From Acanthamoeba castellanii str. Neff (Eukaryota; Discosea; Longamoebia; Acanthamoebidae): a DNA stretch of 39,941 bases. How positions within the stretch are numbered: the first letter of the stretch is position 1; every line of letters starts with the position of its first letter. The position numbers were made by a program, and so were the translations under genes. Of the stretch, positions 24,845-30,652 are shown one piece after another. The stretch is taken from assembly GCF_000313135.1 (NCBI RefSeq), contig NW_004457384.1:1-39941 (forward strand), read 5' to 3'. Below the pieces are notes generated by a model. The model saw only the letters and a program-made list of their open reading frames with translations. It had not been told where the DNA came from and did no database searches.

Positions 24845-24913
24845 TGTTTCGTTTGACCAAATTTCTGTTCCGTTTATTTTATTTATTTGTGTTTTACACA
24901 AATTTGCAACAAG

Positions 24914-25639
24914 ATGGAGGCGCCAAGCCAGCAGGGAGGTGTGGCCACCCTGGACCAGCTCAAGGAAATGTTCTCCCTCTTCGACAAGGATGGTGACGGC
25001 ACCATCACCGTAGATGAGTACACGCCTAGGTTTCGTTATTTATTTATTATTGATTTATTAATCCATAAATCCAACACCACACAGGCTGGAGTCGGTGATG
25101 CAGTCCATGGGCCAGAACCCGAACAAAAAGGAGCTCGAGGAGATGATGAACGAGGTGGACACCGATCACAACGGCTACATTGACTGCGGTACTACCAGCC
25201 ACCGGCGCGAGCGCTGCCTCTGCTCGCATCGTGTGGCACTTACCGTGGGGTGTGGCCGTCCACCGTGCGTGTAGACGAGTTCGTGCAGCTCATGCAGAAG
25301 CAAACGTCGCACAGCAGCGAAGAAGAGGCCCTCGGGGCCTGGAAGCTGTTCAACAAGAAGGGCAGAGACGTCATCTCCGCAGCCGATTTCCGGTACCACT
25401 CGTCGACACTGCGACTGGCGTCAAGCTTGAGCGATGCCGCTGACCATCATCACCATCACCATCATGGCCACACTACTTGCTCGGTCTATGCATGCGCGTG
25501 CAGGGAAGTGATGACGAAGCTCGGAGACACGCCACTCACGCACGAGGAGGTGGATGACATGCTGCGGACATCGGGCGTGCGCGGTGACGGCGAGATCACG
25601 CTGGAAGAGTTCAAGACGATGCTCCTAAACAACAACTGA
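24914..25639 (+). CDS. Calmodulin-like EF-hand protein with degenerate C-lobe loops
   Basis: Four exons join in phase: 24914-25028, about 25083-25188, 25270-25393 and 25504-25639. The product is about 155-160 aa. The N-lobe has a canonical loop DKDGDGTITVDE and a second loop DTDHNGYID completed across an intron as GYIDCDEFVQLM. The third loop, NKKGRDVISAAD, lacks the acidic residues needed for calcium. The fourth, in TSGVRGDGEITLEEF, keeps only part of the set. The order of EF hands and the linker (SMGQNPNKKELEEMMNEVD, LGDTPLTHEEVDDML) follow calmodulin, so this is a divergent calmodulin-like protein whose N-lobe probably binds calcium while the C-lobe may bind targets constitutively. It converges with another EF-hand gene only 120 bases away. 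Confidence 0.9.
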
Positions 25640-25760
25640 CGGCCACTCACCAAGGTGCCGCGCTGGGTTCGCAGGGTCAAATGAAAATTAATGTTATATG
25701 TACAGTGCTCGATCGCCCCGGCGACGATGATGATGGTGATGAGTGGAGCGATCCGAGGCC

Positions 25761-26518
25761 TCAGTTGCGCAGTTCGCTCAGGCCGAGGCCAATGACGATG
25801 TCGGGGTTGCGGATGGCGCCCTCCTTGTACTCCTCGATCGTGATCTTGCCGTCGCCCATGGAGTCCATCTGCTCGAAGAAGGCGTCGGCGAGCTGCTCCA
25901 CGGACTCGAACTTCTTGCCGGAGAAGGTCACCACGTCGCCGCCTACGAGGTTGAGGAACGAGGTCATGATCTTGTTCATGTCCTCGCGCGTGATGTGGCC
26001 CTTGTCGTCCAGGTCGTACATCTGGAACGCGACTACACACTCAACGTCAGCCAACGCAACGCAACACGAAACGAAACGAAACGACACGACACACACAACG
26101 TACATTCGAGCTTTTCGTCAGGCGTGCCTCGCGTGATGATGGAGAGGGCGAGGACGAACTCGGGAAAGCGGATGCAGCCGGTCTTGGTGCCGTCGAACAC
26201 CTTGAAGATGAGGTCCTGCAGGAAGGGGTCCTCCACCCCCATCCGCTGCAGAACCCCCTTGAACTCGGCCTTGGTGATCACGCTCGTGGGGGCCTCCTTC
26301 TTGAACCACTTGAACATGTCGCTAATCTCATTCAAGGCGACTTCAAGAAGAAAGTAGAAGGCAGAACCAAGAGAAAGAAAAAGTTTACCAACTGCTCGTC
26401 CAGGCAAGAGAGCTCTTGCAATTAACGTACAATGCGAACGCCGGTGAATGTCCTCGAGTTGCTCTCGGCTCAAGTGGTCGCCTTTGTCGTCCTTCTCCTT
26501 GCCCCCTTGATTGCCCAT
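25761..26518 (-). CDS. NCS-1/recoverin-type calcium sensor
   Basis: Exons are about 26518-26430, 26342-26106 and 26034-25761, the last ending LGLSELRN. The N-terminus MGNQGGKEKDDKG has Gly at position 2 as needed for myristoylation, though Ser/Thr is absent at position 6. LSREQLEDIHRRSH matches the NCS start. Then come VFDGTKTGCIRFPEFVLALS with ITRGTPDEKLE, the strongest family signature, followed by FQMYDLDDKGHITREDM and MDSMGDGKITIEEYKEGA with IRNPDIV. Three EF loops look calcium-competent to different degrees; the first is degenerate, as is usual for NCS proteins. EF3 ends in Asp rather than Glu, which often weakens calcium binding. A calcineurin B-like or CBL identity is possible but fits less well. 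It likely associates with membranes in a calcium-dependent way. Confidence 0.85.
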
Positions 26519-26630
26519 CGTTTCTTGATGTGTCCGTTGGCGGCAGTGCTTCGAAAATAGGCAAAAGTAGGACATCAAGTTCCTACTTCCCGCCAAAAAA
26601 ATTAATCACAATTTAACTCAAAATCTGCAG
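26519..26630. promoter_or_regulatory. 112-base bidirectional promoter interval
   Basis: The start codons of the NCS-like gene (26518, minus) and the PNKP-like gene (26631, plus) face away from each other with only 112 bases between. Both promoters and 5' leaders must fit here unless there are unseen leader exons. The part near the plus-strand gene is AT-rich (AAAAAAATTAATCACAATTT, about 26596-26615) and ends in TGCAG just before the ATG, so a leader exon for the plus gene spliced at 26630 is also possible. Confidence 0.5.
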
Positions 26631-29600
26631 ATGGAGTGGACAACTCCCATCGCCGGTCCCGAACTCGTCTTGTTCTATGGCCCGCCTCAATCGGTACGCC
26701 AAGGGCCGTGTTCTAGCTCACTGAAAACGCAATAAATAATTGTCTTAAATCAACTTTTATGTTTGCAATCCTTGTGGGCAGGGCAAGACGCGCTACTTCG
26801 AGAAGCAGCTCAAGTCGACCCACATTCGTGTCTCGGCCGAGGACACCTTCCGCGCACAGCCACACATGTCCCTCCACCGGGTGGTGAACATGGCCATGTC
26901 GCATCTGCAAGCCGGCAAGAGCGTCGTCATAGGCATGCTTGCACAGACCCCCTCGCGTGTTGCGTGTTGCGTGGGTACGATCCTCACTCCCTTTGCTTGC
27001 GACAGATGACACCAACAGCAAGAGGGCCACACGAGCATCCTACATTCGAGGTTCGGCGCACTCGTTGTGGTTGGCGTTTGTGTGTGCTTGTTTGCCGACA
27101 TTGCTTCTCGCGGTGTCCAGCACTGCGCAGTCGGCTGGCGATGTGTCGCGTGGTGTGCATCAACTTTAAACCCCTGGGCGATGTATTGCAGTGCCAGGTG
27201 CGACCAATGGACGGTGCCCCTCGTGTCCCCATTTCGTTCTGCTCAGCACTTACTCCATTTCACACGGCAACACGGCACACGACACACACGACACATGCAC
27301 GATGCGAAACCCACTGCAGTGGCAGAACGAGTGGGCTCGGGCGGCCTCTCTCGCGGCCAAGGGTACGTCACTCGCGCAATGTAGAAGCGGCCCAGAAGTC
27401 GTCGTTGGCTTCTGATCGGGCTCCAACCGCCATAGAAGAGGGCCACGTGGGCGAAGCAGCGAACATCGGCGTCGTGGAGTCAGAGGCCTGGGACAACTGG
27501 ATGGCCGACGCCGACCCACCAGACGCAGTACGCGCTCCCCTGTGTCGTGTGTGCGTGGCGTGGCGTGCGTGTGTCGTGTGTTGTCGTGTGTCGTGTGATG
27601 TGCAGCGCATTTGACAGCTCTGCGCAGAGCGAGGGCTTCGACGAGATCAAACTCGTGGAGTGCTCCCTGCGATCATACAGCAGCACGCCCTTCGACACCA
27701 AGGTAGCCCTGGACCCGCAACGCGCTCCCTCTAATCTCGAGAGCTATCATGGTCTATGATCATGTAGGGTCTGACTCCGATCGATCCACGGGCGCGCAGG
27801 GGCTGATGATCGACGCCGAGGCCCTGTACGAGTTCAACGCCGAGCTCCTGTCCGACGCCTTCTTCGGCGGCACGCTACCGGGTGCGGTGCATTTCGTGGC
27901 ATTCCGGAGGCGTACATTCCTCACATTCATCATCATCGTCCGGGCAGGTGGGGACTGGGTGAAGCTGCGCGATGACGTCGAGCAGGTCCTGTGCGAATTC
28001 CAAGACAATTTTGCCAAGGCTCGGTTCATCGTGGTCATGAACGAGGCCAGCATCCTCCCCGCCGAAGTCCACCTCCTGGACCCCACCCAAGTACGTGTGT
28101 GCGGCACCGCACACGCACACGCACCACCGCACATGCAGGCATAACCCGAATTCTCTGACGAACGTGCGTGGTGTCGACCACAGTCCGAAGTGCAGTTTTC
28201 GCGCTTCCGCACGCGGCTGATGGACGAGCTGGCCAAGCTGTCGGTCACCACGTACTACCTCTATCTGCCGCGACGATCGAGTATCCACTCGGCCTTCCTC
28301 AAGCCTCCCTCGCCCGGATTCATTGCCTGGTACGCATCGACCGCACTACCCCAACCTCGGCTGGCTCATCCCCGCGTGTGCCGCGCCGTGTGCGTGTGTG
28401 CGTGTGTGCGCGTGTGATTTCATGTGTGTCGTGTGTGTCGTGTGTCGTGTGCTTAGGCTGCAAGAGCGGCATCGGCTGATGCTGTCGGAGAGTCTGTTCG
28501 TGGTGCGTGAGAACTCGCCGCTGGCAGCGGCGGCGAGGGGCTACGTCACGCAGATCCACGGCGAACACTTCTTCAACTCCTCCGGCTGGCTCGTCCAGAG
28601 CAAAGTGTACGCGCATTGATGACGCCACCACACGACACACTCGCCGCGCACCGCACACACATGACACGCAACACACGGCACGAGACACATACACCGCACA
28701 CACACATGCACGCGTCAAACTTGTGACGCGTGACCGTGTGCTGGCCCAGGCGCATGCACTCCCGAGAACCGACGGCCAGACCGGCCTTCCTGAGCTCGAT
28801 CGAACCACCGGTGGCGGCTGAGGAGAACGCGGCGGACGGCCTCCTGCTGGGCGGCGATTCACCCGCTCCGCCTCTGTGCACCGCCGCCAACCAACACAAA
28901 TCATCGCGTACGCACATAACCGAACGACTCTTCGTGTGCGTGTCGTGTTGTGTGCAGTTGGTGACCTGGTTCCTTGTGTGATGTGTGTTCGCCGCCGGCC
29001 ACAGGAGGGCGCAGCGAAACGATCGACGACGTGCTCATGCACGGCCTTGTTCTCCCGGTCAAGGTGAAGAGTGAATTCGAGTTGAACGTCCACCACGCTC
29101 CAGCTACTGCGCCAGCCATTCCCACGATTACGGCCCCGACGAACGAACTGTCGGCGCCGGTGACGCCCATACCGCGCGAGAAGCAGCGCTCGGCGGCGGC
29201 CAATCTCCTGCGGACGCCCACGACGCCCAACCCGGCGCTCGACTCCCCGTCGGGCGTCTCCCCTCGTCGCCGGCTGCCCGGCTGGATGTCGCCCGGAGCC
29301 CCCAAGCCAATGTACGCTCCTGATCAGTTCTTGGTCGTGTGTGCGTGTTATGTCGTGCGTCGTGTTGCGTGTGCGGCGCTTGTAGCTGAGCGTTTGGCCT
29401 GTGCGCAGTAAGCCGCGGATGCCGAAGCTGAGCGAGGGCGAGGGTGAGGCCGACGAACCCAAGACGCCGGCGAAGAAGAAGAAGACGGCTACAAAGCCCA
29501 AAGAAGCAGCTGCACCGGAGACGCCCAAAAAAGCCAAGCCGGCACCCATCCGCAAGGTGCGCCAAACGCAAACGCTAACAACAATGAAACAAGTTTCGTT

Positions 29601-30652
29601 TGGATCTCAACCATGCGTGGTGGCGTGCGTGAGACCAGGGGGCAGCGGCGACGGCGGTCAAGCAGGAGGAGCCCGAGTCGCCCACGGAGGACCTGCTGCT
29701 CTCCCTGGCAAAGATGGTAGCCCCCCCAATACCCCCCCCCCCAAAGCCTCTACGTAGCGGCTCACGTTGAATCATTTCCGCGGCCAGGAGGAGGATTCCG
29801 AGGATTCCGAGCTGCTGCCGTCGCAGCCCACCTTGAGCAGCGGCAAGCGCAAGCGCGACGCGTCGTCGGTGAAGCGCGAGCTGCCAGATGCGGGGAGCGT
29901 CAAGCCCCGCTTTGTAATGGCCGACGGCGACGGCGGTGGGATTGACGACGCGGGCGGCTCCGACGGAGACGCCGATGACCTTCTGCGACGAAGACGGAAG
30001 CGGCCGCACACGACTGTAGCGACCCGACACGACGACGCCACGCCCGAAACGGATGACGGGATGGGCCACGTCGACCTACCGTGGCCCTCGCCGCCTACGA
30101 GCATCGCCGCCTCAGCCACTGCCACGACGACCACCAACATCACCGACTCGCTGCCTTCGTGGGAGGAGCCGGCCTGGCACGCCTCCAGCGCCGCCGGCAC
30201 CGGCACGACCACGCCGCCGCCTTCGTGGGACGACCTGCGATCGATCGCCGCCGCCGCCACCACGACAACGACGACTACGGCCAACCCAACAACGCCGCCC
30301 TGGGAGGAGTTCGTCGCGCCCGTCGAAAGACGAACAGACACGCTCAACGATGACCTGCTGCCCCAATTCACCGCTTCGCGAGCCACCACCAACGCCAGCG
30401 CAGTGGAGAGAACATCATCATCATCGACAACGACAACGCCAAATCGCCATCGCGACCACCAGCGTCGCCACCACCGCCAGCCACACCCATGCCACTGATT
30501 TTAACAACGGCGACTGCGGCGACTACGACAAGCGAGGGAGGGCTGGGCGCTGGGATGGCGACGCCAACAACGCCGGCCAAGCCCAAGGTGAGCCTGCGCG
30601 AGCAGCTGATGGGTCGTGGCCTCCTATCGCCCAACAAGCCCAACCTCTTCTA
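26631..30652 (+). CDS. PNKP-related protein: N-terminal polynucleotide kinase, degenerate phosphatase fold, Ku-binding-motif tail
   Basis: About 16 exons give roughly 900 aa. Exons 26631-26693, 26782-26932, 27006-27050, 27121-27197, 27320-27362 and 27384-27528 form a PNKP-type kinase: Walker A GPPQSGKT split by an intron, VSAEDTF with the likely general-base Asp, AGKSVVIDDTNSKRATRASY and EGFDEIKLV. The second intron is GC-AG. Next (27690-28607) comes a PNKP-like phosphatase fold: FDTKGLMI where FDxDGT is expected, GDWVKL, RFIVVMNEASI at the FTNQ motif, KLSVTTYYLYL, KPPSPG and SLFVVREN at FVGDAAG. Most catalytic residues are lost. The tail has PRRRLPGWMS (29262-29291), an APLF/WRN-type Ku-binding motif, basic clusters (KKKKTATKPK, SGKRKRD, RRRRKRP), low-complexity Ser/Thr/Pro repeats, and the end GLLSPNKPNLF. 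The last 80 residues need a frame change near 30400. Likely a nuclear DNA-end repair factor. Confidence 0.75.

Follow-up and report, generated by a model that had tools for sequence, protein, structure and literature searches.

A predicted PNKP-type kinase with reversed domain order and a candidate Ku-binding motif in Acanthamoeba castellanii

Analysis of a 39,941-nucleotide stretch of the Acanthamoeba castellanii str. Neff genome (NW_004457384.1, positions 1 to 39,941; hereafter the window) revealed a gene at 26631-30498 on the forward strand whose spliced product of 822 amino acids joins a predicted PNKP-type kinase (residues 1-172), a putative HAD-like domain (residues 173-355) and a long tail with a candidate Ku-binding motif (residues 356-822). 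Its public counterpart, found by protein search, is ACA1_275490 (P0001), annotated as an 'uncharacterized protein'. The reading that we prefer, at a probability of a little under one half (about 0.48), is that the product acts as a Ku-tethered 5'-end-processing factor composed of a PNKP-type kinase, a pseudophosphatase module and a Ku-binding tail. We infer the kinase activity, the Ku binding and the role in end joining from sequence.

The kinase domain and its gene model

The exons of the kinase lie at 26631-27672 (forward strand), and comparisons with Pfam, NCBIfam, hhalign profiles, the PDB and Foldseek all point to a PNKP-type 5'-polynucleotide kinase. The Pfam family AAA_33 matched with 27.5 bits (cut-off 27) and NCBIfam TIGR01663 (bifunctional PNK-3'Pase) with E 4.4e-10, in its kinase part only; hhalign against 31 PNKP kinases gave a probability of 99.0 and P 4.2e-18. 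Mouse PNKP was the best PDB sequence match (4.8e-5) and again the best match, at E 5.1e-8, in a Foldseek search with the AlphaFold model, where PNKPs accounted for eight of the ten matches at E<=0.001. Comparison of profile scores revealed 108.7 for eukaryotic PNKP vs 64.6 for T4 Pnkp. By these comparisons the kinase is of the eukaryotic PNKP type.

The Walker A sequence GPPQSGKT (26679-26790, interrupted by an intron) and SVVIDDTNSKRATRASY are both present, as stated in a preliminary description of this DNA, which had placed a PNKP-type kinase first in the protein, a claim that these results bear out. Further kinase motifs are SAEDTFR with the catalytic aspartic acid (26833-26853), VVIDDTN and, at the end of the domain, PPDASEGFDEIKLVE. 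The columns of the Walker lysine and the catalytic aspartic acid are invariant in all 31 aligned rows, P0001 included. The model agrees with PNKP kinases at 17 of the 37 columns that show >=90% conservation among them, including the aspartic acid of VVID, T, N, R, C and PxxxEGF. From these columns and the retained key residues, 5'-kinase activity is likely but uncertain. The HxNxxR stretch differs in the model kinase, at a place where the alignment is uncertain.

The gene model consists of 16 exons and 15 introns, 14 of the GT-AG type and one of the GC-AG type, with compatible phases at every junction, in agreement with the earlier statement that the exons can be joined by matching phases. A chance open frame was rejected in view of these fitting phases, the public protein and the codon usage. 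Removal of the GC-AG intron (26933-27005, forward strand) restores SVVIDDTN, the counterpart of SVVIDNTN in PNKP. The public protein is spliced otherwise here, and at residue 72 carries GMLAQTPSH in place of one aspartic acid of VVIDDTN. The kinase requires a GC-AG intron that the public gene model missed. P0001 has 857 amino acids and differs from the 822-residue model by three splice differences only (intron sequence kept or an alternative donor); the two besides the GC-AG site retain intron sequence.

The second domain and the order of domains

The second domain is encoded by exons at 27673-28604 (forward strand) and was assigned by hhalign profile comparison as a candidate degenerate HAD domain of the PNKP-phosphatase/HisB-GmhB type. 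Against a combined profile of 62 PNKP phosphatase and HisB/GmhB sequences it gave a probability of 88.8, a score of 41.7 and P 2.5e-6, a value that needs a correction of roughly sevenfold order because seven profiles or versions were compared (PNKP phosphatase, HisB/GmhB twice, both together twice, T4, three families together, macrodomain). None of 150 shuffled sequences reached this score (maximum 26.0), and local shuffling gave maxima of 28.6 (window of 6, n=120) and 20.5 (window of 10, n=120). Other controls on the same profile scored 11.3 (reversed domain), 11.6 (own kinase) and 13.0 (Ku80 vWA); among known domains, six T4 HADs scored 45-73 and six macrodomains 9-17. Our analysis therefore supports a HAD-like second domain of the PNKP-phosphatase/HisB-GmhB type without proving it.

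Besides the correction of P, several results weigh against this assignment. The second domain matched the PNKP-phosphatase and HisB/GmhB profiles weakly when each was used singly, and no HAD family was found in it in Pfam, NCBIfam or PHROGs, nor any sequence match in the PDB. A global position-specific scoring matrix comparison with the PNKP phosphatase profile was not significant, its score being reached by 12 of 300 shuffles per scheme. In the same comparison 104 of 118 C-terminal 183-residue pieces of PNKPs, which may extend into the phosphatase, scored at least as high as the second domain. Single-sequence hhalign scores are also noisy: against the macrodomain profile, a doubled shuffle, one out of 100, attained 30.8.

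Analysis of the HAD motifs revealed that the intact forms (DxDxT, the S/T of TNQ, GDxxxxD) are missing from the second domain. Motif I reads DTKGL or DAEAL depending on the alignment, motif II VMNE and motif IV RENSPL, and the lysine of motif III falls in KPP in one alignment and in LKP in another, which leaves it ambiguous. With three motifs (I, II and IV) disrupted, the domain is probably catalytically dead. The preliminary description had proposed a dead PNKP-type phosphatase fold at this position; the HAD-like nature by profile comparison and the degenerate motifs agree with it, and structure prediction did not confirm the fold.

The same uncertainty of fold bears on a rival explanation, which we judge quite improbable, that the second domain is another alpha/beta domain such as a permuted macrodomain of the kind found in plant PNK kinase fusions. 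A plant fusion is reported in a passage of PMC5087659, HAD was absent from the library matches and structure prediction left the fold unsettled. However, a bacterial macrodomain profile (24 sequences) scored 13.1 plain and 10.9 when doubled for permutation, both within the shuffle range, against the 41.7 obtained for HAD. A permuted macrodomain of the bacterial type was rejected on these scores; the plant/APL type lies outside the profile.

The order of domains in the spliced model is kinase, HAD-like domain, tail, and so differs from that of eukaryotic PNKP, in which the phosphatase precedes the kinase. A passage in PMC1997131 distinguishes a T4-like group of PNKPs (kinase-phosphatase) from a eukaryal one (phosphatase-kinase). 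If the second domain is indeed a HAD, its position after the kinase is that of T4 Pnkp, as stated earlier. It does not match the T4 type of HAD, however, having scored 9.1 on a T4-type HAD profile (11 sequences) on which 100 shuffles reach 17.4. Inheritance of the layout from a phage was rejected on this score and the closer fit of the kinase to eukaryotic PNKP. For the same two reasons the order seems to reflect a rearrangement within eukaryotes, the T4-like layout apparently having arisen convergently from reshuffled eukaryotic PNKP modules. No FHA domain was found in the 822-residue model, AAA_33 being the sole Pfam family at E<=1, as had been claimed; PBZ finger and HIT/aprataxin families were likewise absent among Pfam families at that threshold.

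The tail and its candidate Ku-binding motif

The tail (exons at 28605-30498, forward strand) is of low complexity and probably disordered, as judged from composition and predicted local distance difference test (pLDDT) values. It is 467 amino acids long, with 78% disorder-promoting residues vs 59% in the domains and pLDDT mostly <50, consistent with the long disordered tail described earlier. It contains basic patches resembling nuclear localization signals, three psi-K-x-E sites and acidic tryptophan motifs. The latter (DLPWPSPP, LPSWEEPAW, PPSWDDL and PPWEEF, at 30073-30321 of the window) hold five of the six tryptophans of the tail.

An APLF-type Ku-binding motif candidate, SPRRRLPGWMSPG, lies at 29259-29297 (forward strand) in the disordered region. 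Within it, RRRLPGWM (29265-29288) has the core RRLPGW (residues 497-502), which fits the Ku-binding core R-X-X-P-X-W given in a passage of PMC4831024 and resembles peptides tested there, WRN-cA RKRRLPVWFA and MRI TRVLPSWLTA. The core pattern arose by chance in 1056 of 20,000 shuffles of the tail, and an extended pattern with added basic and hydrophobic positions, devised after the motif had been seen, in 4 of 20,000. Neither pattern was found in 120 other proteins, nearly all PNKPs. A passage in PMC4831024 also states that the core Ku-binding motif (KBM) occurs in >600 proteins, and its authors call for validation. Overall, RRRLPGWM is likely a good APLF-type candidate, and the canonical-looking Ku-binding motif of the preliminary description holds as a pattern.

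Analysis of the genome revealed Ku80 on contig C75, a second gene, Ku70-like, on C50 and one match to XRCC4, an XRCC4-like gene. The amoeba Ku80 vWA domain, with exons joined manually, matched human Ku80 at E 8.7e-24. The pocket for the APLF motif is described in a passage of PMC8224183 as L68, I112, M115, I149 and I150 of Ku80; the amoeba protein has L, I, M, V and V at these positions and, by this comparison, retains the pocket.

The frequency of the core motif bears on a rival explanation, in our view unlikely, that the protein is a nuclear RNA 5'-OH kinase or RNA-repair factor whose resemblance to a Ku-binding protein arose by chance. Matches to the KBM core are frequent, the fungal RNA kinase 6u00 is also among the Foldseek matches, and the T4-like kinase-phosphatase layout is associated with RNA repair in viruses in a passage of PMC1997131. 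On the other side, the extended motif is rare, and the kinase profile best fits the eukaryotic DNA-repair PNKP and T4 less.

A second rival accepts the Ku motif and holds that the protein is a Ku-bound scaffold, its kinase weak or inactive too, which acts as an APLF- or WRN-like assembly factor through this motif and others in the tail. We regard it as rather unlikely. The degenerate second domain, the differences at 20 of the 37 conserved kinase columns and a tail that is longer than both domains combined and carries several short motifs are consistent with it, as is the end-joining effect of the WRN KBMs, independent of WRN catalytic activity according to a passage in PMC4831024. However, the Walker lysine, the catalytic aspartic acid, that of VVID and PxxxEGF are kept, which is unexpected under functionless drift.

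The frame of exon 16 stops at 30498, short of the gene end at 30652 given earlier, which was not fully confirmed. A scan of codon usage by frame favours, from about 30380-30410 onward, an alternative frame that ends at 30652. No intron (>=40 bases, GT or GC donor, AG acceptor) joining the two frames was found in the ranges tried. Because codon usage switches frame and no joining intron was found, an assembly frameshift, probably of one base, is likely near 30400 in the last exon. In the assembly, the probable true C-terminus (30380-30652, forward strand; ENIIIIDNDN...LSPNKPNLF) lies in a different frame from exon 16. Its ENIIIIDNDN we take to be a SUMO-binding-like stretch, and its end, KPNLF, is a weak XLF-like C-terminus.

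Upstream of the gene lie what we take, by eye, to be a calmodulin-like EF-hand-like protein (24857-25639, forward strand) and a calcineurin-B-like EF-hand-like protein (MGNQGGKEKDDKGDHLSREQLEDI; 25743-26520, reverse strand). A DEAD-box-helicase-like gene (AGKTGTGKT), also labelled by eye, follows immediately downstream, from 30747 onward.

Relatives, proposed role and comparison with known systems

The genome searched (G000) comprises 38.4 Mb in 250 contigs, with the gene described here on C160. A paralogue elsewhere was rejected, as all 14 matches at E<=0.01 with P0001 as query lie on C160 within the gene. Canonical PNKPs occur in the same genome as separate genes. One, P0002/P0003 (G000:C65:359787-363344), carries the PBZ finger family PF10283, and the other, P0017 (G000:C26:77103-77644, 472 amino acids), has intact phosphatase and kinase families. 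The genome therefore has at least three PNKP-type genes, and ACA1_275490 is an extra gene and no replacement. An FHA-like stretch precedes the PBZ at the P0002/P0003 locus, by eye in a six-frame reading, so that APLF-like modules stand ahead of its phosphatase and kinase. Matches to PBZ occur at nine places in the genome, at least eight of them outside C65; PBZ proteins are common here and, according to a passage in PMC5087659, in Dictyostelium too.

When the gene product was searched against 5.8 billion proteins, P0001 was the sole match; distant relatives were possibly missed, because such searches require shared 5-residue words. Among 1202 canonical PNKP matches, of which 120 were listed, domain order was examined in 31 + 23 aligned rows. 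No title or abstract found describes such a protein, and ACA1_275490 was not mentioned in the papers searched. As no relative with its domain order was found, the protein may be a novel type of accessory factor in the repair of DNA breaks.

Under the preferred reading of a Ku-tethered end-processing factor, the tail would dock through RRRLPGWM on the Ku80 vWA pocket at a double-strand break and so bring the kinase there, which would phosphorylate 5'-OH ends at the break. The HAD domain, its catalytic residues lost, would serve as a structural or nucleic-acid/protein-binding module, with 3'-phosphates left to the canonical PNKPs. Canonical PNKP elsewhere is recruited through its FHA domain and XRCC4. 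It is possible, and we propose it tentatively, that the amoeba protein represents a novel class among end-joining factors, namely a reordered PNKP with a pseudophosphatase platform and a direct Ku80 tether that couples 5'-phosphorylation to Ku, bypassing FHA and XRCC4. If the frame ending at 30652 is real, this class may also have gained the SUMO-binding-like stretch and the XLF-like end. End processing would then be wired directly to Ku within one polypeptide, PNKP domain order would be variable in eukaryotes and the HAD half could persist as a pseudophosphatase. The Ku-binding motif would also be predictable beyond animals, with one peptide, one kinase and one Ku as a simple test system.

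The protein can be compared with several known systems. The plant fusion presumably has the order PNK kinase, macrodomain, aprataxin. This fusion, in which an APL macrodomain is joined to aprataxin and polynucleotide kinase domains according to a passage in PMC5087659, is the nearest printed precedent. The earlier remark that no described protein of this architecture was known is accordingly qualified: none was found in the proteins and literature searched, and the fusion is a partial precedent. Both are eukaryotic proteins that join a PNK-type kinase to further DNA-repair domains, whereas ACA1_275490 is without a bacterial-type macrodomain signal and without a HIT/aprataxin family in Pfam at E<=1. 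The KBMs of WRN and MRI/CYREN share the form of the motif (basic patch, proline, tryptophan; WRN-cA in the passage cited above), but their host proteins are unrelated to ACA1_275490 and the amoeba motif is predicted from sequence. Like APLF, ACA1_275490 has a disordered region with a basic-L-P-x-W motif, here a candidate, for binding Ku80; unlike APLF it carries a kinase, and neither FHA nor PBZ was found in it in Pfam at E<=1. Phage T4 Pnkp (PseT) likewise has a kinase followed by a HAD domain, but its DxDGT is intact, while the putative HAD of ACA1_275490 is not of the T4 type and its kinase is nearer PNKP. Eukaryotic PNKP shares the type of the kinase domain, and its HisB-like HAD phosphatase family is apparently related to the second domain. 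In contrast to that enzyme, ACA1_275490 has a reversed domain order, broken phosphatase motifs, no FHA domain (present in animal PNKP) and a long tail with a candidate Ku-binding motif.
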